DNA from: Myxococcales bacterium | Lineage (GTDB): Bacteria > Myxococcota > Myxococcia > Myxococcales > JAJYLH01 | Assembly: GCA_021787845.1 (NCBI GenBank) | Contig: JAJYLH010000004.1 | Span: 1 to 64,000, forward strand | Reading direction: 5' to 3' | DNA: 64,000 nt | Shown here: one piece after another, positions 26,973-47,111 of the stretch | How positions within the stretch are numbered: the first letter of the stretch is position 1 | Layout of the letters: every line of letters begins with the position of its first letter | Notes under the pieces: model-generated | What the model was told of the DNA's origin: nothing | The model's input: only the letters and a program-made list of their open reading frames with translations | Database searches by the model: none | Program-made: the position numbers and the translations under genes

Positions 26973-27140
26973 GCGCTCTCCCGCTCGTCCCTCGACTGCG
27001 CTCGGGATGAGCGGGAGAGCGCTCGGGATGAGCGGGAGAGCGCTCGGGATGAGCGGGAGAGCGCTCGAGATGAGCGGGAGAGCGCTCGAGATGAGCGGGA
27101 GAGCGCTCGAGATGAGCGCGAGAGCGCTCGGGATGAGCGG
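26973..27140. repeat. C-family hairpin with seven-fold 21-bp tandem amplification
   Basis: A hairpin with a perfect 14-bp stem (GCGCTCTCCCGCTC at 26973-26986, inverted at 27009-27022) encloses the core CTCGACTGCGCTC. From 27001 its right arm is repeated as 21-bp units (CTCGGGATGAGCGGGAGAGCG) starting at 27001, 27022, 27043, 27064, 27085 and 27106, with a partial seventh at 27127. Later units have CTCGAGATG. The array lies between eutB and eutC. Confidence 0.9.
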
Positions 27141-33407: not shown

Positions 33408-36400
33408 CTACTGGGTCGGCCGAGTGCGCGGGCCGCCGAAGATCACGTACACGTCGCTCGTCGGGTAGACCTGTGAAACGAAGATGTCGGCGTAGCCGTC
33501 CCCGTTGAAGTCGCCGATGGCGATGCCCCGACCGAAATTGCTGCCGCTCGAGGGTCCGTCAATCACGGCTTCCGCTTCGCTCGGGTTGGAAGGCGTGGTC
33601 TCGGTCAGAGCGGTGCCGCCTCCGTAGAAGACGAAGACCGCACCGTTTCCACCGTCCGCACCCGGGGCACCCACGATCAGGTCTGGCTTGCCGTCACCAT
33701 CCAGGTCGCCCACGCCCACGGCGAAGCCGAAACTTTCGCCATCAAATTTGTCGGTGAAGACCTTGGTTCCGGAAGGCGGCGAAGACAGATCGATGCTCTG
33801 CGTTATCGGCAACGACACGAGGTAGACCGAGGAGGGGTTGTTTCCCCACGACCCGACCGGGACGATCAACCGTCTATCATGGGCCGTGGCGTTTCCGAAG
33901 TCGGCCACGATGGGCGCCGACCCTGGGGCGGGCTTCCCGATGGTCATGTCCGGCGCGCTCCAGAGCCGGTGCGTGTCCTGCGGGATGTTGCCGCCATAGA
34001 ACACGTCGGTGCCCCAGCCATCGTCCCACTCGGTGATGAAATCGTCCATGTAGTCGCCGTTCACGTCCCCCATCGAGGAGAACCGGAGGATGTTGCTGCT
34101 GCTCCAGGAGTTCGGGAAGTTGGGATACTCGCCGTCATCGACCCAGGTGGAAACCTCGCTTGCGGTTGGCGGATAGCCGACCGGGATGGTAACACCCTGC
34201 GGGTAGCCATTCTTGATTGGCGCTTGCTGCCAGGAACTGTTGCCCATGAGCACATACCCGGCCGAGTGGAATCTCTGGCGATGGTCCCATCCCCAAGAGG
34301 ACACGTAATTACTCCACACGAAGCCAAGCATGACGTCATTCACGCCGTTTCCACTGTAGTCACCAGAAACCAAGTCGCTAAAGCATTCGCCGTTCGGCGT
34401 ACCCCACGGTTGGCCAACGTCTTCGACGAGGTAATCAGCGTTGGCCCCCCCGTAACCCACATCGTTGAGGTTCGTGAGCGACGTCTTGTTGCGAAGTGCT
34501 GTGTTGCCCAGCTCGATGGCCACTCCGCCCTTGGTGTCGCTGGCGGTGCTGTCCTGGTAGCCTCCGAGGACAACGTCGTCGATGCCGTCTCCGTTGACGT
34601 CGCCGGCCGCGACCGAGACCACGGGCTCGCTATCGAAGCCGAGTTTGAGATCTCCATTGGGCAGCGTCCACGACACCGTGTCACGATTGCTCATCGATCT
34701 CCCCCAGACCACCGCCGCCGGCTGCCCAGCGAACAGCATGTCGGTCTTCCCGTCGCCATCGAAGTCTCCGATGGCCCAGCTTCGACCCGTGGTCGGATAG
34801 CCGGCGCAGTCGTAATTGCAGCCGCCGGTGAGCTGGCCGCACCCGAACGCCTCGTCGTAGGTCCCGCCGCCGGTGTTGCGGATGACCACCACGCGCGGTA
34901 TCTGGGTCTTGGTGTTGATGGTGCCGATGATTGGCGGCGGAATCGACTTGCAGATCCCGGCGATGCACTCCGAGTCGAGCATGCAGTCGGTATCCGTCGA
35001 GCAGGGCTGCCCATCGGGCGACCGGCAGGTGCCGCCGACGCAGGCCTGTCCTGCCGAGCAATCCGCGTTCGACTTGCAAGTCACTCCCGGCTTCGCCGCG
35101 CAGACGCCGGCCGCGCAGTCGTCCGCCGAGACGCAGTCCGCATCCATCGTGCAGGTCCCGCCCGTCGGCTCCTTGCAGACGTTGTTCTCGCAGGTCAGGC
35201 CCGTGAGGCAGTCGGCCGTGGTGGCGCAGGCGCCGCCCACCGGCTCCACGCAGACGTAGTCGACGCAGACCTTGTTCAGGCAACTGCCCTTGGCGCAGTC
35301 GGTGTCCACCGCGCACGCCGCCCCGCTGCCCTCGTTCACGCAATGGCCGTCCGCGCAGTCGGTGTCGTGGGTACAGGAGACTCCCGCGCCGGCCTGGCAG
35401 GTTCCGCTCTTGCAAACGTAGTTCGGCTGGCACTGGGTCGAATCCGTGCAGCTCCCGCCGACCGGCTCGCGGCAGGTGCCGTCGACGCAGGTCAAGGAGG
35501 CCCAGCAGGCGTCGGGGCCCGCGCAGGCGCCGCCGGGGCCCGCGCGACAGGTGCCCTGGTAACATTGGAGGCCCGTCGCGCAGTCGGCGCCCGAGGTGCA
35601 GGCGCCGCCGCTCGTCGCTTCGCACTTGCCGTTGTCGCAGGTCAAGCCGTTCGCGCAGTCGGTGTTGGTGGTGCAGGCGGTCCCCGTGCCGGCCTTGCAG
35701 GTTCCCGCATCGCAAGTCAGACCGGTGTCGCACTGATCGCTCGTCTGGCACTGGCCGCCGGCCGTGCTCACGCACTTGTCGAGCACGCACGCGAGACCGG
35801 TGCTGCAGTCGGCGTCGGCCACGCAGGCCGAGCCGAGGTTGCCCAGGCACTTGCCGTTCGTGCAGGTGAGCCCCGAGGCGCACGCGACCGTCGCGTTGCA
35901 GTCTCCGCCCGCGGTCGCGTCGCAGACGCCGTTCTCGCAGGTGTAGCCGGTCGTACACGGCGCGGTGGCCGAGCAGGGCGCGCCCCCCTCGCCCGAGCAG
36001 ATGTTGCCATGGCAGTCGACTCCCGGGACGCAGTCGGACACGCTCTGGCACGGCTGTCCGATGTTGCCGAGGCAGGTGCCGTTGACGCAGGTCGTGTCCG
36101 GCGCGCAGGCCACCGGAGGCGTGCTCGAGCTGGAGCAGGTGCCGCCCTGGTTCGCCGCGCAGGTTCCGTTGACGCAGGTGAACCCCGTCGAGCAGGAGAC
36201 CGTGGAGCTGCACGGCTCGCCGCCGGTCCCTTCGCAGATGTTGCCCTGGCAGGTGAACCCGGTCTCGCAGTCGGAGGTCTGCTGGCAGGCCGAGCCCATC
36301 GTGCCCTTGCAGATGCCGTTGACGCAGGCGAGCCCGGTCGCGCAGGGGATCTGCGGGTTCTGATCGGAGCAGGTGCCGCCGAGGTTCGCGGCGCACACGC

Positions 36401-38123
36401 CGTTCTCGCAGGTGAACCCGGTCGCGCACGGGGCCTGATCGTTGCACGGCTCGCCGCCCGTCCCTTCGCAGATGCCCCCGTGGCAGGTGAAGCCCGGCGC
36501 GCAGTCGGTGCTCTGCCCGCACGCGGCGCCCATCGCGCCCAGGCAGACGTTGTTGACGCAGGTCAAGGTCGACGCGCACGGCACCTGGGCGTTGCAAGTG
36601 CCTCCCAGGTTCGCGTGGCAGACGCCCGCGACGCAGGTGTAGCCCTGGGTGCAGGGGGCCGATTGACTGCACGGAGAGCCGCCCTGCCCCGAGCACTTGC
36701 CCGCGTAGCAGTCGTACCCGGGCGCGCAGTCGTCGGCGGTCTGGCAGGCGGTCCCGAGACCTCCCTTGCAGGTGCCGTTGACGCACGTCAACCCTTGCGC
36801 GCAGGAGACGTCGCTCCCGCAGGAGCCGCCCAGGGTCGCGACGCAGACCTGGTTCTCGCAGGTGAACCCGGAGGCGCAGGGCGCGGTGGGCGTGCACGGC
36901 CCGCCGCCCTTGCCCGAGCAGGTGCCACCGTAGCAGGCGAGACCCGGCGCGCAGTCGCCGTCCGTCTTGCACTGGGCGCCGAGCTGGCCGACGCAGGTGC
37001 CGTTGACGCAGGTGTAGCCAGTGACGCAGTTGAGCTGGGCGGAGCAGGTCCCGCCGGCGTTCACGTCGCAGATTCCGTTCTCGCAGGTGTAGCCGATCGC
37101 GCAAGGATCCTTGTCGGAGCAGGTCGAGCCGCCGTCGCCGCGGCACTGGGCGCCCTGACACTCGAAGCCGGGGGCGCAGTCGCTGTTCTGGTGGCAGGGA
37201 GAGCCCATGTCGCCCTGGCAGGTGCCGTTGACGCAGGTCAGCCCGGCCGCGCAGACCACCTGGCCGTTGCAGGTGCCGCCCAGGTTCGCGTCGCAGACGC
37301 CGGCCTCGCAGGTGAACCCGGTCGTGCAGGGGTTCTGGTCGCTGCAGCCAGACCCGCCCTCGCCCGCGCACTTGCCCGCGTGGCAGTCGTAGCCGGGGCC
37401 GCAGTCGGTGGCCGTCTGGCAGGGCGACCCGAGCTCGCCGCGGCAGGTGCCTTGGACGCAGGTCAATCCGGTCGCGCAGGACACCGTGTCGCTGCAGGCG
37501 CCGCCGACGTTGGAGTGGCAGACCCCGCCTTCGCAGGTCGACTCCGGCCCGCAGGGAACGGTGTCCGAGCACTGGGAGCCCGGCGCGCCGAGGCAGACCT
37601 TCGCGTGGCACTCGTAGCCCTGGGTGCAGTCCTTGTCGGTGCTGCACGTCGAGCCCGGCGTCGCGAGGCAGACGTTGTTGACGCAGTCGAGGTTCTTCGC
37701 GCACCGCTTGTCCTTGTCGTCGCAGGCGCCCTCCAAGCCGACCTTGCAGGCGCCGTCCTCGCACACGAGCCCCGGCGCGCACGCGATCTGGAGGTCGCCG
37801 CCGCAGGGAAGCGATGCTCCCGGCGCACAGACGCTGCTGACGCAGGTGTAGCCGGTCGCGCAGGGAATCTTGTCGTTGCAGGCCTGGGCCGCGGTCGCGA
37901 CGCAGGTGCCCGCCTCGCAGGTCGAGCCGGGCACGCAGGCGGCGACCTTGGTGTCGCAGGAGCTGCCCGGCAATGGCCGGCAGGTCCCCTGGTAGCACGT
38001 GTTTCCGGTGTCGCAGGCCGCTCCCTGGGTACAGCTCGCGCCGGCCCGGATGGGGGCTGTCGGCGAGCCGCAGGCGACGAGCAGCGCGGATACGCTGGCG
38101 AAGAGAACCGAGAGACGACGCAT
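33408..38123 (-). CDS. Giant Cys-rich lipoprotein with C-terminal FG-GAP repeats
   Basis: ATG 38123 has GGAGG six bases upstream; the product has 1571 residues, lipobox LLVAC. Residues about 25-1090 are some fifty short Cys repeats of about 21 residues (CxxGxxCxNGxCxxxxGxxC), organised in a higher-order repeat in which GYTCENGVC, LTCVNGTC and YDCHAGKC types alternate. The C-terminal 450 residues hold FG-GAP/VCBS-like calcium-binding repeats (FDGDGKTDMLFAG, GDVNGDGIDDVVLGG, GDLDGDGKPDLIVGAPGADG, GDFNGDGYADIFVSQ) as in integrin-type propellers. It is probably a large surface protein. The two domains differ in composition, the 3' third being less GC-rich. Confidence 0.85.
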   Translation of the reverse strand: MRRLSVLFASVSALLVACGSPTAPIRAGASCTQGAACDTGNTCYQGTCRPLPGSSCDTKVAACVPGSTCEAGTCVATAAQACNDKIPCATGYTCVSSVCAPGASLPCGGDLQIACAPGLVCEDGACKVGLEGACDDKDKRCAKNLDCVNNVCLATPGSTCSTDKDCTQGYECHAKVCLGAPGSQCSDTVPCGPESTCEGGVCHSNVGGACSDTVSCATGLTCVQGTCRGELGSPCQTATDCGPGYDCHAGKCAGEGGSGCSDQNPCTTGFTCEAGVCDANLGGTCNGQVVCAAGLTCVNGTCQGDMGSPCHQNSDCAPGFECQGAQCRGDGGSTCSDKDPCAIGYTCENGICDVNAGGTCSAQLNCVTGYTCVNGTCVGQLGAQCKTDGDCAPGLACYGGTCSGKGGGPCTPTAPCASGFTCENQVCVATLGGSCGSDVSCAQGLTCVNGTCKGGLGTACQTADDCAPGYDCYAGKCSGQGGSPCSQSAPCTQGYTCVAGVCHANLGGTCNAQVPCASTLTCVNNVCLGAMGAACGQSTDCAPGFTCHGGICEGTGGEPCNDQAPCATGFTCENGVCAANLGGTCSDQNPQIPCATGLACVNGICKGTMGSACQQTSDCETGFTCQGNICEGTGGEPCSSTVSCSTGFTCVNGTCAANQGGTCSSSSTPPVACAPDTTCVNGTCLGNIGQPCQSVSDCVPGVDCHGNICSGEGGAPCSATAPCTTGYTCENGVCDATAGGDCNATVACASGLTCTNGKCLGNLGSACVADADCSTGLACVLDKCVSTAGGQCQTSDQCDTGLTCDAGTCKAGTGTACTTNTDCANGLTCDNGKCEATSGGACTSGADCATGLQCYQGTCRAGPGGACAGPDACWASLTCVDGTCREPVGGSCTDSTQCQPNYVCKSGTCQAGAGVSCTHDTDCADGHCVNEGSGAACAVDTDCAKGSCLNKVCVDYVCVEPVGGACATTADCLTGLTCENNVCKEPTGGTCTMDADCVSADDCAAGVCAAKPGVTCKSNADCSAGQACVGGTCRSPDGQPCSTDTDCMLDSECIAGICKSIPPPIIGTINTKTQIPRVVVIRNTGGGTYDEAFGCGQLTGGCNYDCAGYPTTGRSWAIGDFDGDGKTDMLFAGQPAAVVWGRSMSNRDTVSWTLPNGDLKLGFDSEPVVSVAAGDVNGDGIDDVVLGGYQDSTASDTKGGVAIELGNTALRNKTSLTNLNDVGYGGANADYLVEDVGQPWGTPNGECFSDLVSGDYSGNGVNDVMLGFVWSNYVSSWGWDHRQRFHSAGYVLMGNSSWQQAPIKNGYPQGVTIPVGYPPTASEVSTWVDDGEYPNFPNSWSSSNILRFSSMGDVNGDYMDDFITEWDDGWGTDVFYGGNIPQDTHRLWSAPDMTIGKPAPGSAPIVADFGNATAHDRRLIVPVGSWGNNPSSVYLVSLPITQSIDLSSPPSGTKVFTDKFDGESFGFAVGVGDLDGDGKPDLIVGAPGADGGNGAVFVFYGGGTALTETTPSNPSEAEAVIDGPSSGSNFGRGIAIGDFNGDGYADIFVSQVYPTSDVYVIFGGPRTRPTQ

Positions 38124-38349
38124 GGATGACCTCCGCCTGGGGGGCGAGAAAAATCGCGTGTGAGGTTTCCCACGATTTCGCCGGACGGTCAAGCGCCATC
38201 TCGAAGTCAAGCGGTGGGAGGATGTTGGCGGGCGCTGGCCTTCGGGACAGGCGAGCGCGACGGCGCGAAGGCGAGCGCCCTCCGCGCGACGCTGGCGTCC
38301 CGGGTCGATCGGCTGGACCGCTTCCGGTCCTCGTCGTTAGGATGCCGTC

Positions 38350-38946: not shown

Positions 38947-39321
38947 GCCAGGGGGTCGCCTCGCCCGCGCGGCTTGGTAGATCCATGCCCATCCCGTGAC
39001 ACACTTGGAGCCGGACACGCGAGTGTCCGGGTGCAGGCACCGCGTTCGGTGGGTCTCCGCCGTCGCGCCGCGACGACAGCGAATCCGCCCTGTATCGCTC
39101 GGGAGGGCCGCGATGTCCGTGCCTCACCCGGACACTCACGTGTCCGGCTCCGATTTTGGCGCATCCGCGCACAGATTCTGTCGGAGAGCCCGCATCCGAG
39201 TTTGCCCTCGCCTGCGTCCAAGGCTTGCGCGCCCGCGCCTCGAACCGGCAGGATGGCGTTCCCGCTCATCCCGAGCGCAGTCGAGGGACGAGCGGCTTCG
39301 CGGGTGTTCGCCGGAGCGTTC
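38947..39321. other. Spacer with two H-family hairpins and one C-family hairpin
   Basis: This 375-base stretch holds H hairpins at 39005-39040 and 39127-39151 in opposite orientation (GGAGCCGGACAC... and ...GTGTCCGGCTCC). A C hairpin at 39261-39296 lies only 25 bases before the ATG of the ABC binding-protein gene and ends next to its Shine-Dalgarno (GGAG). No gene was seen. The last hairpin could affect translation initiation. Confidence 0.7.
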
Positions 39322-41901
39322 ATGCGCCGTGCTGGCCTCATCGCGCTCGTCCTCGCGGGGTCGGCGTGTCGGTGCGGCTCGACCGGCGTGTGCGGCCCCC
39401 GCGGCGACGAAGTCCGCATCGCGCTCGCGACCTTGCCCAACACGCTGGACTGGAGCGCTTCCAGCCAGTCGTCGGCGCCCAACTATCCGGTCATCCACGC
39501 GATGATGCGGGGCTTGACCGCTCTCGGTCGGCACGACGAGGTGGTGCCCGCGCTCGCGGCGAGCTGGGAGGTGACGACGGTCGGTGCGCCGCCCCGGCAG
39601 GTCTACACGTTCCATCTGCGCCGCGACCTCGTCTGGAGCGACGGGAAGACGCCGCTGACCGCGGAGGACTTCGTCTTCGGCTGGCGGCGCGCGCTCCTCG
39701 GGAACGAACCGGAAACGATGCTGGACATCGCCGGCGCGCGCGCGGTGCTGGAGGCCCGGTCGAGCCGGGTCGCGCCAGCCGCGGTTCACGCGCGCATCGC
39801 CCAGGCGCTGACCCACTTCGCCGTGAAGGCGCTCGACGCGCACACGCTCCAGGTGACCTTGCGCTCGCCGAAGAGCTACTTCCTCGCGCGGGTCGCCTAC
39901 GTCTACCCGTTCTTCCCCGAGCCGAGCGCGGACCTCCTCGGCCGCACGCCGGAAGAGATCCGCCGCTACTTCAACAGCCCGTCGCACGGCCGGCCGCTGG
40001 TCCTGGGCGCGTTCCGGGTGGTGCGCTGGGATCGCCTCGGCCGGACGGTGCGGCTCGAGGAAAACCCGTTCGACCACGACGTTCCGGCGCGCGGGCGGGT
40101 GAAGAGCCTCCTGCTCGTCCAGGCGGCGCTGAGCCCGATTCTCTACGATCATTGCCGCATCGACTTCGCCCTGATGGATGACCCGTCGATGCTCGCGTCG
40201 CCGCCGCCCGACCTGCGGCATACCGATCTCCTCTCGACCTACTGGCTCGGCATGAACACGACGCTGGTGCCGCTGCCGCTGCGACAGGCCATCGCCCATG
40301 CCATCGACCGCCAGGCGCTGATGAAGGGACTGCTCCCGCAGGTGCGCCTCGCGACGACCTACCTGCCGCCCGGGATGCCCGGCGCGCCCGACGCGAGCGA
40401 CCCGCAACTGAAGACGTACCCGAGGTACGATCCTGGGCTCGCAAAGGGTCTACTGGCTTCACCGGGAGAGTCTGCGGTGCCATCATCACCCGCGAGCCCC
40501 GAGCGGAGCCCGACGGTTCTCGGTCCGGCGCAGTCGAAGGGCGGGGCTCGAGACGCTCTTCCAACGCCGCCCTTCGACTCCGCTCAGGGCACGCGGGACA
40601 TCGACCAGGCTCATTCCCGAGCGGCGAGCTTGCCCGCGGCCTACCATGGCCAACCCCTGACCCTGCTCGTGCGCGACTCGAACACGTTCCTGCCGGAAGT
40701 GGCCATCGCGGAGGGCATTCGCGAGCAGCTCGAGGCGGTGGGCATCGACGTGCGCGTACAGGAGACTTCGAACTTCACGAACGACATCCAGGACGCCGGC
40801 GGGCGGGTGGTCGTGCCTCTCTTCTTGAAGCGCGTCGGAGCGGACTATGCGCATCCGCAGACGATGCTCACGCCGTTCCAGGCGAACGGGGTCAACTACA
40901 CGGACTTCGCCAAGCTCGACGGCGGCAAGGAAGAGGCGAAGCTCGACGCCCTCCTCGACGCGGGCGCGGCGACGACCGATCCCGCGGCGATGCGACGCAT
41001 CTACGGCGAGGCCGACGCGCTCCTCGTGCGCGACGATGTCGTGATGGTGCCGCTCTTCTATCCCGATCGCTACTACCGCATCCGACCGTGGCTCGCCGGG
41101 CTCGGCGTCGACTCGTTCAACTTCCTCACCCTGCGCTCGATGCACTTCGTCAAGTCGGAACCCAAGCCGCTCGGCTTTGGAGGCCGTCCCTTCGAACCGC
41201 GCGTGGAGCATCCGGCGTTCTGGGCCGGATGCGGAGCAAGCGGCTCCCGCGGAAGGCGCCTGGATCATCCATGCAGGAACCGGGTGCTCAACGGACTCTT
41301 TGCGTGGGACGCCGCGATCGGGGAAGCCGGACACGTGAGTGTCCGGGTACAGGCACAGCGTCCGAGGAATCTAGGTGGTGATGCCGGACCGCTGGTCCGG
41401 CAGGTGGGCCAGCGGTCCATCACCACTGAGTCGGTTACGGTCCCTGCCTGTACCCGGACACTCGCGTGTCCGGCTCCAACGACCCGACCGTCATGCGCGC
41501 GAGCCTGCGCGTCGAGCATCTGTACCCGGACACTCGCGTGTCCGGCTCCAACGACCCGACCGTCATGCGCGCGAGCCTGCGCGTCGAGCATCTGTACCCG
41601 GACACTCGCGTGTCCGGCTCCAACGACCCGAGCGTCATGCGCGCGAGCCTGCGCGTCGAGCATCTGTACCCGGACGCTCGCGTGTCCGGCTCCAACGACC
41701 CGACCGTCATGCGCGCGAGCCTGCGCGTCGAGCATCTGTACCCGGACGCTCGCGGGTCCGGCTCCAACGACCCGACCGTCATGCGCGCGAGCCTGCGCGT
41801 CGAGCATCTGTACCCAGACGCTCGCGTGTCCGGCTCCAACCACCGCCGACATCAACCGGTTGGGCGTGGCTCTATGCGCTGCCCCGGCGGCCTTGCGATG
41901 A
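39322..41901 (+). CDS. ABC peptide-transporter substrate-binding lipoprotein, repeat-expanded
   Basis: The 859-residue frame starts at ATG 39322 (GGAG five bases upstream), lipobox GSAC. Residues about 25-620 are an OppA-type (SBP family 5) protein: IALATLPNTLDWSASSQ, LRRDLVWSDGKTPLTAEDF, LRQAIAHAIDRQALMKG, VPLFYPDRYYRIRPW. Two parts are foreign: residues about 380-435 contain C-family repeat sequence, and from about residue 625 the frame runs through an H hairpin, another palindrome and a 24-codon tandem array. It nonetheless reaches a TGA overlapping the permease ATG (ATGA), so the reading frame appears preserved. Typical OppA proteins are about 540 residues. The partner ATPase gene is absent here. 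Confidence 0.85.
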   Translation: MRRAGLIALVLAGSACRCGSTGVCGPRGDEVRIALATLPNTLDWSASSQSSAPNYPVIHAMMRGLTALGRHDEVVPALAASWEVTTVGAPPRQVYTFHLRRDLVWSDGKTPLTAEDFVFGWRRALLGNEPETMLDIAGARAVLEARSSRVAPAAVHARIAQALTHFAVKALDAHTLQVTLRSPKSYFLARVAYVYPFFPEPSADLLGRTPEEIRRYFNSPSHGRPLVLGAFRVVRWDRLGRTVRLEENPFDHDVPARGRVKSLLLVQAALSPILYDHCRIDFALMDDPSMLASPPPDLRHTDLLSTYWLGMNTTLVPLPLRQAIAHAIDRQALMKGLLPQVRLATTYLPPGMPGAPDASDPQLKTYPRYDPGLAKGLLASPGESAVPSSPASPERSPTVLGPAQSKGGARDALPTPPFDSAQGTRDIDQAHSRAASLPAAYHGQPLTLLVRDSNTFLPEVAIAEGIREQLEAVGIDVRVQETSNFTNDIQDAGGRVVVPLFLKRVGADYAHPQTMLTPFQANGVNYTDFAKLDGGKEEAKLDALLDAGAATTDPAAMRRIYGEADALLVRDDVVMVPLFYPDRYYRIRPWLAGLGVDSFNFLTLRSMHFVKSEPKPLGFGGRPFEPRVEHPAFWAGCGASGSRGRRLDHPCRNRVLNGLFAWDAAIGEAGHVSVRVQAQRPRNLGGDAGPLVRQVGQRSITTESVTVPACTRTLACPAPTTRPSCARACASSICTRTLACPAPTTRPSCARACASSICTRTLACPAPTTRASCARACASSICTRTLACPAPTTRPSCARACASSICTRTLAGPAPTTRPSCARACASSICTQTLACPAPTTADINRLGVALCAAPAALR
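40467..40625. repeat. Repeat-derived insertion inside the binding-protein gene
   Basis: A stretch containing GCAGTCGAAGGGCGGG and, inverted, GCCCTTCGACTCCGCTCAGGG interrupts an otherwise family-like protein between LAKGLLA and YHGQPLTLLVRD. It encodes about 50 low-complexity residues (ESAVPSSPASPERS, for instance) in frame. It is a variant C-family element. Confidence 0.6.
41324..41426. repeat. H hairpin and a second long palindrome within the ABC gene 3' end
   Basis: GCCGGACACGTGAGTGTCCGG at about 41326-41345 is an H hairpin. At 41375-41426, GTGGTGAT and GGACCGCTGG are inverted as CCAGCGGTCC and ATCACCAC, an 18-bp stem with a 3-base bulge. Both lie in the open frame of the binding-protein gene. 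Confidence 0.8.
41449..41840. repeat. 72-bp tandem array carrying H hairpins
   Basis: Units start at 41449, 41521, 41593, 41665 and 41737, with a partial sixth at 41809. Each begins TGTACCCGGACACTCGCG, then GTGTCCGGCTCC, and is nearly identical to its neighbours. Differences include CAC to CGC in the left stem of later units and C to G in the fifth. The period is exactly 24 codons, so the frame is kept; the translated unit starts CTRTLACPAPTTRPSC. Confidence 0.95.
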
Positions 41902-42809
41902 GGCGTTTCCTCCTCCGGCTCGTCCGCGACCTGGCGCTGATACCGCTCATCGGCATCGTGTCCTATGAGATCATCGCGCACCTGCCGATCCGCCGCGACA
42001 CCGGTTCCAAGGTGATGATCTCCCAGGCGGTGCAACAGGACACGGCGCATCGACTCTGCCTCGATCGATGGGACGGGTTCCTCTGTCCCTGGCGGAACCT
42101 CCTCGAAGGCAAGTCGCTGGCGAGCGACACCTCGGTCGACACGTACGACGCCCGTCAAATCGCGAGCGCGGCGATGGGCAGCGCGCGCATCGGCGGCATG
42201 GCGCTTCTGTTGGCGTTGGTCCTCGCGCTGGCGTTCGCGTTCGCGCGCGTCGTCTTCGAGCGCTCCCCCGCCGACGAAGCGCTGGACCTCTGGCCGACGC
42301 TGGTCTACGCGACGCCGTCGTTCATCTTCGCGATGCTCGTCGCGGCCTACACCGGCGTCTCCTACGGCGATGACAAGCGCGCGTTCGAACCCATCGCGGC
42401 GCTGGTCGTGGCGCTCGGTCCCGGCACCTTCCTCGGTGTGGTCCTGCACGACGCGCTCAAAGCGGAGTCGCTCAAGCCGTACGTGCAGACCGCCCTCGCC
42501 AAGGGGCGCTCGCGGCTCTCGGCGCACTTACGCCATGCGCTACCGAACGCGATTCCCACGATGCTCGACGCGCTGCCGCCGGTGGCGACGGCGATGCTCG
42601 CCGGGTCGTTCGTGGCGGAGAAGCTGTTCAACGTGACCTATCTCGGCTTCATGTACGTCGAGGCCGCGCGCGACCGCGAGCTACAGGTGGTGGTGGTGAC
42701 GACCACGATCTTTGCTTCGATCCTGGTTCTGGTCTCGCTGGCGGTCGACCTCGCGCGTCTGATCATCGACCCCCTGGCGCGGCGGCGCGCGTTCGAGGGC
42801 GACCGGTGA
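41898..42809 (+). CDS. ABC peptide-transporter permease (DppB/OppB-like)
   Basis: The 303-residue inner-membrane protein starts at an ATG overlapping the binding-protein stop. It has an N-terminal membrane helix (about 8-27), a periplasmic segment with two Cys (CLDRWDGFLCPWRN), and then a permease domain with several helices. The EAA-type loop is PYVQTALAKGRSRLSAHLRHALPNA. The C-terminal helices include the FVAEKLFNVTYLGFMYVEAA stretch typical of DppB. It ends in a GTGA overlap with the next permease. Confidence 0.87.
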   Translation: MRRFLLRLVRDLALIPLIGIVSYEIIAHLPIRRDTGSKVMISQAVQQDTAHRLCLDRWDGFLCPWRNLLEGKSLASDTSVDTYDARQIASAAMGSARIGGMALLLALVLALAFAFARVVFERSPADEALDLWPTLVYATPSFIFAMLVAAYTGVSYGDDKRAFEPIAALVVALGPGTFLGVVLHDALKAESLKPYVQTALAKGRSRLSAHLRHALPNAIPTMLDALPPVATAMLAGSFVAEKLFNVTYLGFMYVEAARDRELQVVVVTTTIFASILVLVSLAVDLARLIIDPLARRRAFEGDR

Positions 42810-43627
42810 CCGCAAAGACCAAAGGCCGCATCGGCGGATGGTCGCTGATCGCGCTGGTTGCGCTGAGCCTCGGCTACCCGCTTCTGGCGCGCGTTCCCTC
42901 CGTGCCAGCCTGCCCACTGGGATCCGATCCGAGCTTCCCCGCGGCGTCGATCTGTGCGCGCACCTTCGGCGGCATGTGGCGATCGATTCTGATCGGACTG
43001 TCGGCCGGCCTCGGGTCGTGCGCCATCGCGCTCTTCCTTGCGCTCTTCGCGCGGCGCTTGCGCGGCGTGACCGACACCCTCGTCGCCAAGTCGGCGGATC
43101 TCTTCTTCGCCCTGCCCGACATCCTGGTGCTCATCGCCATCGGGTTCGTCGTGAACGTGCTCAACACCCAAGGCGGCCGGCACATCTCCCCGATGATGGC
43201 GATGATCGTTTCCCTGACGGCGGTCGGCTGGGCGGCGCCGGCGAGGCAAATCCAGAACCGCCTGCGCTCGCTCGAAGGCCAGGAGTTCGTGCTCGCGTCG
43301 GAAGCGCTGGGGGCGACGCGCACGCGCATCTTGATTCAGCACCTCCTGCCGGCCGCGCGCGAGTTCGTCTTCGCGATCTTCCTCCTCCGCGTGCCCGCCG
43401 TGATCCTTGCCGAGTCGACGGTCAGCTTCCTCGGCTTCGGCCTCCCCGCCGACCAACCGTCGCTCGGCGCGTTCCTCGGAACCAACTACGACAAGCTGAT
43501 GTACTCCGGCGAGATGCACGTCGTCCTGCCCGCCTGGATTCTGCTCGGCCTCGTCGTGCTCTCGTTCCAATGGACCGGCCAGGCCGTGCTGGCGCGGAGC
43601 GGAACTCGTCAGGGTCCGGGTTCATGA
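42806..43627 (+). CDS. ABC peptide-transporter permease (DppC/OppC-like)
   Basis: The 273-residue inner-membrane protein is coupled to the preceding permease by GTGA. The EAA loop is EFVLASEALGATRTRILIQH LLPAA, and the DppC-like end includes ILAESTVSFLGFGLPADQPS and a final helix (LVVLSFQWTGQAVL). A periplasmic Cys pair (PACPL, ICART) is present near the N-terminus. The next sequence is a repeat array and no ATP-binding subunit gene follows, so the ATPase must be supplied elsewhere. Confidence 0.88.
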   Translation: MTAKTKGRIGGWSLIALVALSLGYPLLARVPSVPACPLGSDPSFPAASICARTFGGMWRSILIGLSAGLGSCAIALFLALFARRLRGVTDTLVAKSADLFFALPDILVLIAIGFVVNVLNTQGGRHISPMMAMIVSLTAVGWAAPARQIQNRLRSLEGQEFVLASEALGATRTRILIQHLLPAAREFVFAIFLLRVPAVILAESTVSFLGFGLPADQPSLGAFLGTNYDKLMYSGEMHVVLPAWILLGLVVLSFQWTGQAVLARSGTRQGPGS

Positions 43628-43650
43628 ACGGCCGCGGGCCGTGCGCGGTC

Positions 43651-44236
43651 GATCGCCCCTGGCGAGGGTCCCGCCGGCTCGCCAGGGGCCGTTGATCACC
43701 CCCGGCGAGACCTCCGCCGGCTCGCCAGGGGCCGTTGATCACCCCCGGCGAGACCTCCGCCGGCTCGCCAGGGGCCGTTGATCACCCCCGGGGAGCCAAC
43801 CATCGTCAACTTTCCACCATCGATCACCCCCGGCGAGACCTCCGCCGTCTCGCCAGGGGCCGTTGATCGCCCCCAGCGAGCCAACCATCGTCAACTTTCC
43901 ATCATCGATCGCCCCCGGGGAGCCAACCATCGTCAACTTTCCATCATCGATCACCCCCGGCGAGACCTCCGCCGGCTCGCCAGGGGCCGTTGATCGCCCC
44001 CGGCGAGCCAACCATCGTCAACTTTCCATCATCGATCGCCCCCGGGGAGCCAACCATCGTCAACTTTCCATCATCGATCACCCCCGGCGAGACCTCCGCC
44101 GGCTCGCCAGGGGCCGTTGATCACCCCCGGCGAGCCAACCATCGTCAACTTTCCATCATTGATCGCCCCTGGCTAGACCTCCGCCGGCTCGCCAGGGGCC
44201 GTTGATCACCCCCGGCGAGACCTCCGCCGTCTCGCC
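43651..44236. repeat. Two-unit tandem array (43-bp A and 42-bp B units)
   Basis: Fourteen units all begin GATCRCCCCYGGCGAG or a close variant. A units (43 bp) continue with ACCTCCGCCGGCTCGCC; B units (42 bp) continue with CCAACCATCGTCAACTTTCC. Starts are A 43651, A 43694, A 43737, B 43780, A 43822, B 43865, B 43907, A 43949, B 43992, B 44034, A 44076, B 44119, A 44161, and partial A 44204. A units can form a CCCC-GGCGAG/CTCGCC-GGGG hairpin. The array fills most of the 838-base gap between the permease and the next gene. Confidence 0.93.
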
Positions 44237-44465
44237 GTCGCCGGCCTCGACCCCGAGGCTCCCCGGGGAGCGCCCTCGTCGCGCCCGAGAAACGCCGCTT
44301 GCATTTTCCAAATCTCTCGTGGTACAAGGCCTTTCGAGCCCAACGAGCCGCGGCGGACGTACGGTTCCGCCCCGGCGCCGCCACTCGGCGCGATTCCGCG
44401 TGGGCTCGAACCGGCCGCGGCGGCTCGTCCGCCGGAACCTGGGCCGGAGAAAGGAGCCCGACAAC

Positions 44466-45392
44466 ATGCCGCGAAGGAAATCCCTCCCGCCGACCGAGGC
44501 GCCCCAGGAGGTGGCGCCGACTGCGCCCGACCCCGCGCCGGTCGACGCGGAGACGCCCCCGGAGTCGGAGCAGGACTACAACCGGTTCCTGCCCGCGGCG
44601 TTGGCGATGAGCTCGGAACACGTCAAGCCCTATACGGCCGACATGAAGCTCATCCAGCACAACACCCAGACTGGCGTGGAGAGCGTCTCACCGTACCTCG
44701 CGCGGCTGAAGAACGAGGCGGCCGGCATCGACCAGACCCACATCACCGAGCTGCCCAGCCTGGTGCAGGGTCTGGACTTCGCGGTGGGCGTCGTGGAGCG
44801 TTACGCGTCCCCGCCCACTGGAACCGCCGCCGAGATCAAGGAGATGACCGGCCTGCGGACGCTGCTCTTGACCGTGGCCGACGGGTTGGTGCTCGCGGGC
44901 ATCTTCCCGGCCAACAAGGTGCAGCCGATGCATCGGAGCATTGGCCCCACCAAGTTCGCCGGGGATTGCGTGTCGCTGGCATCGCTCTTCAGCAGCAAGA
45001 AGTTCGCGCAACAGATCGAAGGCAAGTCCGCGGTCACCCCGGAGAAGCTCCAGAGGGCGGCAAAGCTCGGAGCGAAGCTGAAGACCAAGGTGCGGCCCAA
45101 GAACGCGAAGAAGCAACGGGTCTCGCCGGAGCTGGCGCAGGCCCGCGACCGTCGCGACCGGCTCTGGACCCTGACCGAAGACTACCAGGAGGACGTCTGG
45201 AAGGCGGGCGCCTATCTCTTCGGGCGCAGTCTGGTGGAGGAGAAGGTGCCGCCCCTGACGGCGCATGTGATCCAGAAGCCGAAGCCGCAGCAGCCGCCGC
45301 TGCCGCCGTCTGAAGACCAGAATCCGCCCGCCACGGCGGCGGACGGAAAGGCGGCTGGCGCCGCGAAGCCCAAGGCCCGCAAGAAGTCCTGA
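44466..45392 (+). CDS. Hypothetical protein, helical with Lys/Ala/Pro-rich tail
   Basis: ATG 44466 follows AAGGAG. The 308-residue product has a Pro/Ala-rich start (residues 5-35), a central helical domain (about 40-230; MKLIQHNTQTGVESVSPYLA, LRTLLLTVADGLVLAGIFPA), a very basic segment (KLGAKLKTKVRPKNAKKQR) and a disordered end (QKPKPQQPPLPPSEDQ, KAAGAAKPKARKKS). There is no signal peptide. The family was not recognised. The charged tail could contact DNA, RNA or membranes, but this is not shown. Confidence 0.75.
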   Translation: MPRRKSLPPTEAPQEVAPTAPDPAPVDAETPPESEQDYNRFLPAALAMSSEHVKPYTADMKLIQHNTQTGVESVSPYLARLKNEAAGIDQTHITELPSLVQGLDFAVGVVERYASPPTGTAAEIKEMTGLRTLLLTVADGLVLAGIFPANKVQPMHRSIGPTKFAGDCVSLASLFSSKKFAQQIEGKSAVTPEKLQRAAKLGAKLKTKVRPKNAKKQRVSPELAQARDRRDRLWTLTEDYQEDVWKAGAYLFGRSLVEEKVPPLTAHVIQKPKPQQPPLPPSEDQNPPATAADGKAAGAAKPKARKKS

Positions 45393-45932
45393 ACGACCGA
45401 ACGAGGAGCCCTCCCGGCGAGCCCGGGGCACGCCGGGAGGGAGCTCCGCTTCCCAACGCCTTCAGGAGCTCCAACCAAACCCGATCGTCGGCGGCGCGCC
45501 TCCCTCCCCGACCCTCCCCCGCAAGAGCACGGGAGACGGGCTTTGCTGTGCCTGCGCAAAGGCAGTCTAGTTCTCCCTCTCCTTGGCATCCCATGGAGCC
45601 GGACAGGACACGTGAGTGTCCGGGTCTTCCGCGAGGCTGTGCCTGTACCCGGACACTGACGTGTCCGGCTCCATGTGCGCTGTGCCTGTACCCGGACACT
45701 CACGTGTCCGGCTCCAAGTGACGCCAAGGAGAGTCAGGAAAAGATCGCCCATCTGCCTATGAGGCGTGTCACTGCTGTCCAAGACACGCCGCGTCGGAGA
45801 TTTCCGCTCATCCCGAGCGCAGTCGAGGGATGGGCGCCCCCCGCGAAGAACCGCTCGTTCCTCGACTGCGCTCGGAATGAGCGGTTCTTCGCGTGGGCAC
45901 GGAATCTGTTTTGGACAGGCGTGATGCCCAGG
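45393..45932. other. Gene-free spacer rich in H and C hairpins
   Basis: This 540-base stretch between convergent genes contains three H hairpins (45596-45622, 45637-45672, 45680-45715) and two C hairpins (about 45805-45835 and 45842-45893). The second C copy has a perfect 15-bp stem CGCGAAGAACCGCTC/GAGCGGTTCTTCGCG. CTGTCCAAGACACG at about 45776 and TGTTTTGGACAG at 45907 form imperfect inverted ends around the C pair. No gene was seen. Confidence 0.8.
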
Positions 45933-47111
45933 CTACCCTTTGGGTTTCCCCTCGTCGTCGAGCTCGAGGAGCCTGGCCCGGCGGATGGCGTCGTTGCCGA
46001 ACCGTTCGCGGAGGCGATCGACCGCGGCGTTGAGGCGGTCGCGTTTGTCGTCCCGTTGGGCGAAAAGCTCCGGCGCCGGCGGCGGGCCGAGGTTGTGGGC
46101 GCTGACGCCGCAGAGGCGAATCGGTTTCGGTGGCGGGTGCGTTTCGAGCAGACCGCGCGCCGCGGCGAAGAGGACCCCGCCGTCGCTGGTCGGCCGCTCC
46201 AGAGTCGTCTGCCGGGTCACCAGCTTGAAGTCCGCGAGCTTGTATTTCAGAGTCACGCCGCTCGCGGCGAGCCCGTGTCTCCTCAGCCTCGACGCGACCC
46301 GCTCCGCCTGGCCGAGCAGGTAGGTTTCGATGGTCTCCAGGTCTTCGAGGTCTTCTTCGAAGGTCTCCTCGGCGCCGAGGCTCTTGGCTTCGTGATCGCT
46401 GACGACGGGCCGCTCGTCCTCGCCGCGGGCGAGCGCCTGGAGCGGCTCGAAATCGTGCCCGAGCGCGAACCGCAGCCGGTCGGCCGGCGCACGCCGCAGG
46501 TCGCCGATGGTCCGGATGCGCACCGACTTGAGGAGAGCCTCGGTCTTCGGTCCGACGCCCCAGAGCCGGCCGATGGGCAGCGGGTCGAGCATCGCCTGGA
46601 CGCCGCCCGGATGGACCTCGAGCTGGCCGTCGGGCTTGGCGAGGTCGGTCAGAATCTTCGCCACGAACTTGACCGGCGCGAGGCCCGCGCTCGCCGCGAG
46701 CCCGATGCGCTCGCGCACCTCCGCGCGCAGCCGGCGGACCGCGTCCATCGGTGGCCCGAGGAGCGCCTGCGTGCCGGTCAGGTCGAGAAACGCCTCGTCG
46801 AGCGACAGGCCCTCGACGAGCGGCGAGTAGCGGTGCAGGACCTCGAAGAACTGCTCGCTGACTTCGGCGTAGTGGCGCATCCGCGGCCGGACGACGACGA
46901 GCTCGGGGCACGCCCGCATCGCCCGCGCCATCGGCATCGCGCTGTGGATGCCGTACTTGCGCGCCTCGTAGCTCGCTGCGGTCACGACGCCGCGGGTCGG
47001 GTGCCCGCCGACCACCACCGGCTTTCCCGCGAGCGAGGGGTCGTCGCGGATCTCCACCGACGCGAAGAAGGCGTCGAGGTCCACGTGCGCGATGACCCGG
47101 CCGGCCGGCAC
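45933..47111 (-). CDS. dinB: DNA polymerase IV (Y-family translesion polymerase)
   Basis: DinB copies damaged templates with low fidelity. The catalytic motifs HVDLDAFFASVE near residue 8 and YSPLVEGLSLDEAFLDLTG (Asp-Glu pair) are present. The helix-hairpin-helix region IGRLWGVGPKTEALLKSVRI and the little-finger domain complete the 392-residue protein. GTG 47111 (VPAGRVIAHVD) was chosen because the family starts just before HVDLDAFF; the frame stays open upstream without family resemblance. No LexA box was recognised. Confidence 0.94.
   Translation of the reverse strand: MPAGRVIAHVDLDAFFASVEIRDDPSLAGKPVVVGGHPTRGVVTAASYEARKYGIHSAMPMARAMRACPELVVVRPRMRHYAEVSEQFFEVLHRYSPLVEGLSLDEAFLDLTGTQALLGPPMDAVRRLRAEVRERIGLAASAGLAPVKFVAKILTDLAKPDGQLEVHPGGVQAMLDPLPIGRLWGVGPKTEALLKSVRIRTIGDLRRAPADRLRFALGHDFEPLQALARGEDERPVVSDHEAKSLGAEETFEEDLEDLETIETYLLGQAERVASRLRRHGLAASGVTLKYKLADFKLVTRQTTLERPTSDGGVLFAAARGLLETHPPPKPIRLCGVSAHNLGPPPAPELFAQRDDKRDRLNAAVDRLRERFGNDAIRRARLLELDDEGKPKG

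Follow-up and report, generated by a model that had tools for sequence, protein, structure and literature searches.

REP repeats within the reading frame of an oppA-like gene, ahead of its overlap with a permease gene

How does a gene for a solute-binding protein come to end in some 235 codons of repeats and still stop exactly where the next gene begins? In the window – 64,000 nucleotides of a Myxococcales genome, the whole stretch of DNA analysed – an oppA-like gene (SBP_bac_5, PF00496, E=1.5e-42) occupies positions 39322..41901 of the + strand, opening with ATG at 39322 and running to its first stop, TGA at 41899-41901. As read from its sequence, the protein has a signal-like N-terminus with a Cys at its end. 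Two ABC permease genes (BPD_transp_1) follow on the same strand, at 41898..42809 (Pfam E=7.6e-15) and 42806..43627 (Pfam E=1.5e-15), each overlapping its upstream neighbour. A first-pass annotation of this locus had offered two accounts of the repeats: either the protein carries a Cys/Ala/Pro-rich repetitive tail, or the repeats occupy an older intercistronic space and the coupling to the permease is accidental. That annotation did not recognise that the repeat unit is a REP spread through the genome, with a RAYT-like gene linked to it.

The structure that had been described is there. TRF returned 5.5 copies of a 72-bp unit at 41448-41844, with 97% matches and 0 indels; beyond the conserved C-terminus (~41190) the oppA frame meets no stop for ~235 codons, a stretch that takes in a hairpin element, then an inverted pair of REPs, then the 5.5 units; and the oppA stop and the permease start overlap in an ATGA at 41898-41901 (+ strand), a geometry found also in orthologues. 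Foreign DNA begins at 41194, ahead of the tandem array. Its first component (41194..41281, +) is the left half of a ~160-bp element with terminal inverted repeats (GAACCGCGCGTGGAGC ends) and a hairpin, GCATCCGGC...GCCGGATGC, of which dispersed copies lie on contigs C68, C30 (2), C141, C8 (2) and C4. Next comes a BIME-like inverted REP pair (41323..41477, without strand), a module recognised from its size class and its fold and found again at C81, C133, C6, C16, C10 and others: a – copy at 41323-41352 and a + copy at 41448-41477 stand around an internal long palindrome. In the array itself (+) each unit joins a 30-bp REP to a 42-bp spacer, giving six directly oriented REPs in all. The first two units do not differ; from units 3-5, together with the last half-unit, come four different substitutions, and no stop results from any of them. 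A second foreign stretch lies further upstream in oppA, at 40462..40650 (+): an in-frame insertion of ~63 codons whose hairpin (CGCAGTCGAAGGGCGG...CCGCCCTTCGACTCCGC) belongs to a different family of repeats. The insertion has partial matches elsewhere in the genome, is opposite a gap in 16/16 orthologues, and is non-coding-like in codon score and in GC by codon position.

What can be learned from the open frame requires some care. It is true, as had been pointed out, that the period is a multiple of three and that changes between units create no stop; but the unit is stop-free in all three forward frames, so that the openness of the array is uninformative. The 254 bp preceding the array are also open, solely in the oppA frame, and over the whole stretch the oppA frame is the only one to remain open, the other two forward frames being stopped at 41336/41372 and 41379/41427. 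The chance that a given frame stays open was 0.09 with element-wise shuffles and 0.013 when the whole stretch was shuffled. Multiplying the former by the one-third chance of a frame-preserving length gives a joint value of ~3%, which is suggestive of selection and falls short of proof.

A central issue is the identity of the repeated unit. The array's 30-nt hairpin, CTGTACCCGGACACTCRCGTGTCCGGCTCC, is one copy of a REP family that is dispersed throughout the genome: a strict pattern gave 82 and 84 matches on the two genome strands (some sites matching on both) against 0 for a reversed-pattern control, and the same pattern gave none across a further 144 genomes from the order. The 30-nt consensus was not encountered in a scan of GTDB species contigs, a set that may lack the window's own genome, and a search for relatives from the same family gave this genome only. 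Across 61 stretches of sequence (583 kb) – mostly picked around REP matches, so that densities are not genome averages – there were 158 copies with <=6 mismatches, compared to 0 in shuffled DNA. Within this sample neighbours <200 bp apart show a marked bias toward the head-to-head ('-+') arrangement, with 52 such pairs against 2 of the opposite ('+-') kind, and the spacings of the '-+' pairs are mostly discrete (40-44, 90-92, 114-115, 122-125 and 142). Several loci elsewhere also have head-to-tail arrays, at different spacings (51, 61 and 43 bp), and a pattern search combined with pair analysis placed an additional inverted REP pair upstream of our gene, at 39007..39151 (without strand). The family is thus a 20-40 nt imperfect palindrome present in >100 copies, mostly extragenic, lying chiefly between convergent or same-strand genes, and arranged in inverted pairs, and its organisation is that of the REP/BIME architecture (PMC2817692, PMC3733652). 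No GTAG or CGTC tag lies beside the stem, the consensus being CTGTAC-stem-CTCC on one strand and GGAG-stem-GTACAG on the other. An Rfam scan of 39000-46000 returned nothing above cut-off; two sub-threshold matches, to Acido-Lenti-1 (19.8 bits, cut-off 37) and to MIR8788 (29.3, cut-off 124), were rejected.

The state of the locus before the repeats arrived can be judged from 16 syntenic oppA-permease-permease operons, a comparison that the first-pass annotation had called for. OppA finishes 0-16 residues past a shared FNFLxLRxLR (FNFLTLR) block in all 16, a position equivalent to ~41150-41195 in the window, and the repeat tail is missing from every one; the native C-terminal residues of our protein are therefore probably encoded at 41149..41193 (+), near the peptide FNFLTLRSMHFVK/KPLGFGGRPF. 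The permease begins at -4 (ATGA/GTGA) in 6/16 and at +3 in another 6/16; gaps of 85-348 bp separate the genes in 3/16, and the remaining, distant operon has an ATGA at the stop. These operons contradict the notion that the coupling is accidental and the space between the cistrons an older one, as they mostly join the end of OppA directly to the permease (-4 or +3 in 12-13/16). Since orthologous permeases begin at once after the OppA stop, the ATGA of the window is most simply an inherited junction, with ancestral coupling, and the repeats are most simply seen as having entered upstream of the inherited oppA stop, in frame. Against this, the gaps of 85-348 bp in 3/16 orthologues mean that a spacer could have been present before insertion. 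One orthologue (L063 2719-3068) has its own oppA-permease gap of ~348 bp, and a same-genus relative is joined at +3.

The same comparison speaks to the possibility that the array is an artefact of assembly, either a chimeric join or a wrong copy number. The genome is a draft of 153 contigs, with repeats at several contig ends, and the copy number of the array is for this reason uncertain; yet the flanks belong to one syntenic operon common to the orthologues, the units carry private substitutions, and the likelier error would be one of copy number and not of presence. We regard an artefact as highly improbable.

Our favoured explanation, which we hold with considerable confidence, sees in the array a REP/BIME cluster, amplified in tandem, that inserted at the 3′ end of oppA, before the inherited ATGA, and has oppA read through it with the coupling to the permease retained. 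The original REP copies would have been spread by the RAYT-like transposase discussed below, now probably inactive, and the 72-bp unit would then have been multiplied via slippage, or via recombination between direct REPs. Because the net length of the insert kept the frame and no stop arose in the oppA frame, the gene would read through to the ancestral ATGA; and because oppA still ends there, translational coupling would be kept. Selection may have retained the frame, given that out-of-frame versions would uncouple the permease. Under this explanation the ribosome would translate the tail, adding ~235 junk-like amino acids to OppA, although transcription may instead end within the hairpins, or a frameshift may take the place of tail translation.

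If the tail is translated, is it an evolved domain? A codon score trained on 51 ORFs has a median of 0.40 per codon in genes (5-95% -0.17 to 0.65) and of -0.57 in shifted frames (-1.0 to -0.20). Read in the oppA frame, the inverted-pair module scores -0.21 per codon, the internal insertion -0.20 and the 72-bp unit -0.43, the last being below the 5% quantile of coding sequence and within the off-frame range; GC by codon position in the tail (0.51/0.91/0.68) is likewise unlike that of genes. A selected Cys/Ala/Pro-rich domain of OppA, serving for example in surface anchoring or in metal/redox binding, would fit a stretch of 235 codons open in the oppA frame only, a signal-like start that ends in Cys, and a period that is a multiple of three and supplies most 24-residue units with four Cys each. 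These features have to be set against the absence of the tail from 16/16 orthologues, its derivation from a dispersed non-coding repeat, its codon score and base composition, and the fact that just 1/4 of the differences between units is silent; such a domain is, in our estimation, very unlikely. With non-coding-like codon usage in the oppA frame and orthologues that do without it, the tail lacks the look of an evolved domain. Thus of the two options first put forward, the capture in frame is formally right, and the evolved repetitive domain finds no support in the orthologues, in the dispersed non-coding nature of the repeats or in the codons. A bolder version would have the secreted binding protein put the REP array to use as a C-terminal domain, translated and variable in copy number: tails would measure n x 24 residues in strains with n units, and the transit of ribosomes through the hairpins would set the OppA:permease ratio via the retained ATGA coupling. 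This, too, we think very unlikely.

One observation is not predicted by in-frame capture. In the frame of the permease (LYPDTRVSGSNDPTVMRASLRVEH) the 72-bp unit resembles coding sequence and scores 0.28 per codon; among non-coding 72-mers, ~0.5% attain this value in a forward frame. Translation of the array in the permease frame might, then, extend the permease at its N-terminus, from near a GTG at 41466, and a 447-codon open frame does span array and permease. Yet the ~20 codons leading from the array to the ATG at 41898 are non-coding-like in the permease frame (-0.43), and the orthologous permeases align from this same ATG and have no extension, leaving this reading highly improbable. A further thought concerns the 42-bp spacer, of which the genome holds no second copy at <=3 mismatches outside this array: it may be a captured piece of some other gene.

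The repeats could also matter mainly as RNA. Predicted folding is strong: -14.4 kcal/mol for the hairpin (z -3.3), -71.2 for the inverted-pair module (z -4.8), and a z of -7.8 for the 751-nt region. The stabilising structure in the malE-malF intergenic region of E. coli is a REP. In those E. coli ABC operons whose messages decay differentially, stabilisation always falls to the binding-protein gene, malE being protected by an intergenic 3′ structure (PMC5927463). Here too hairpins lie between the binding-protein and permease genes of an ABC operon, and by analogy with that precedent hairpins at the junction might protect the oppA message from 3′-5′ decay and reduce permease output. The parallel has its limits, in that the E. 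coli structure is intergenic and untranslated, whereas ours is inside the oppA frame, where ribosomes would traverse the hairpins, and is known from position and predicted fold; moreover, REPs stand at many unrelated gene ends, so that the position need not be selected. That the array acts chiefly as RNA is therefore possible but doubtful. The two ideas are compatible: alongside in-frame capture, RNA hairpins may additionally favour expression of the binding protein over the permease, as at malE-malF.

The question of how the REPs were dispersed leads to a gene on contig C84 (L012 7078-7914, minus strand) encoding a RAYT-like Y1 HUH transposase. The gene is flanked by hairpins of the same REP family in inverted orientation, two '-' on one side and four '+' on the other, and loci encoding relatives of its protein have shared flanking inverted repeats in 41/53 cases, as against 7/53 control windows. 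Almost all of the 80 relatives listed come from Planctomycetota records. The HUH motif is present (H86-V-H88), both His being invariant in 52 relatives; however, His146 stands where 52/52 relatives have Tyr – a column that, from its position, is presumably that of the catalytic Tyr – and Ala replaces an invariant Asn before the HUH motif. With these two replacements the transposase is probably inactive, and if it is dead the REP family may be orphaned. We use the term RAYT-like because the protein scores below the cut-offs of both the curated RAYT model NCBIfam NF047646 (17.7 bits, cut-off 80) and Pfam Y1_Tnp (21.7, cut-off 23); a search of PDB sequences gave no match. The linkage has a counterpoint, namely that the repeats around this gene, as read, bear no GTAG-type tag and that its product is far under the curated cut-off. 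The same genome contains, on contig C24 (L013 3246-3710), a canonical RAYT above the NF047646 cut-off, whose GTAG-tagged flanking repeats are a different REP family.

Seen beside the known REP/BIME and RAYT (TnpA_REP) systems (PMC2817692, PMC3733652, PMC8266576), ours shares a short, high-copy, extragenic palindrome, inverted pairs, restriction to a species, head-to-tail arrays with locus-specific spacers and a Y1 HUH transposase gene between inverted repeats. It departs from them in having GGAG/GTAC beside the stem in place of a GTAG/CGTC tag, in a transposase that is a WTTYGTWLPGD-type relative with His for the presumed catalytic Tyr, and in an array that lies inside a reading frame. The genome therefore adds a REP family lacking the usual tag and tied to a little-known transposase type.

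Read-through of REPs is not confined to oppA. The 84 REP clusters were classed as same-strand (45), convergent (14), divergent (6) or undecided (19), and of 73 approaches of a gene to a REP, 67 stop before the REP (median 92 bp), 3 stop on a TGA inside it and 3 read through. Besides oppA, the last are a 1936-codon acyl-CoA carboxylase ORF with an in-frame REP pair (C82:14053-14123; L103 4054-4124) and a short ORF without clear identity (C86). The carboxylase pair separates the biotinyl domain from the biotin-carboxylase C-terminal domain, and precisely there the otherwise contiguous alignment with a homologue shows a gap of 58 residues: this pair is a second case, after oppA, of an intragenic in-frame REP that orthologues do not have. 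Because these three alone read through among the 73 approaches, in-frame capture is rare but repeated here. Rickettsia palindromic elements are in-frame palindromic insertions in unrelated conserved genes (PMC10969869), and the likeness extends to the acyl-CoA carboxylase; unlike them, only ~2-3/84 clusters are in frame here and the remainder are extragenic, so that location within genes is not frequent.

In-frame REPs as such are known. A survey of GTAG/CGTC REPs found REPs and REP dimers in frame within conserved ORFs, slightly >10% of intragenic REPs being at the ORF end, and the clusters reported as large encode 43-82 aa (PMC3733652). What is new at oppA is the size (~235 aa), the mixing of two or more families of repeats, and a translationally coupled junction that keeps its ATGA. 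With translation of the tail taken as probable from the open frame, oppA would exemplify, at unusual length, the conversion of REPs into coding sequence: non-coding mobile palindromes would be caught in this transition where the ancestral state is clear. The locus also suggests a constraint on REP persistence, the frame having to hold so that the downstream permease stays coupled, and it carries a caution, as gene callers will report captured REP clusters as long repetitive 'domains'.

Other repeats are present in the surroundings. Directly after the second permease, at 43649-44219, is a second tandem array with 85/127-bp units (TCGATCGCCCCCGGCGAG...). The neighbour of the oppA operon on the other side, at 33408-38210 on the minus strand, is an ORF of 1600 codons that has numerous Cys-rich repeats (EB, DUF7107 and Dickkopf_N matches) and an FG-GAP end. 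Further off, at 26998-27140, a 21-bp unit is repeated 6.8 times (GCGCTCGGGATGAGCGGGAGA), with a partial match to the hairpin just upstream of oppA (39260-39295).
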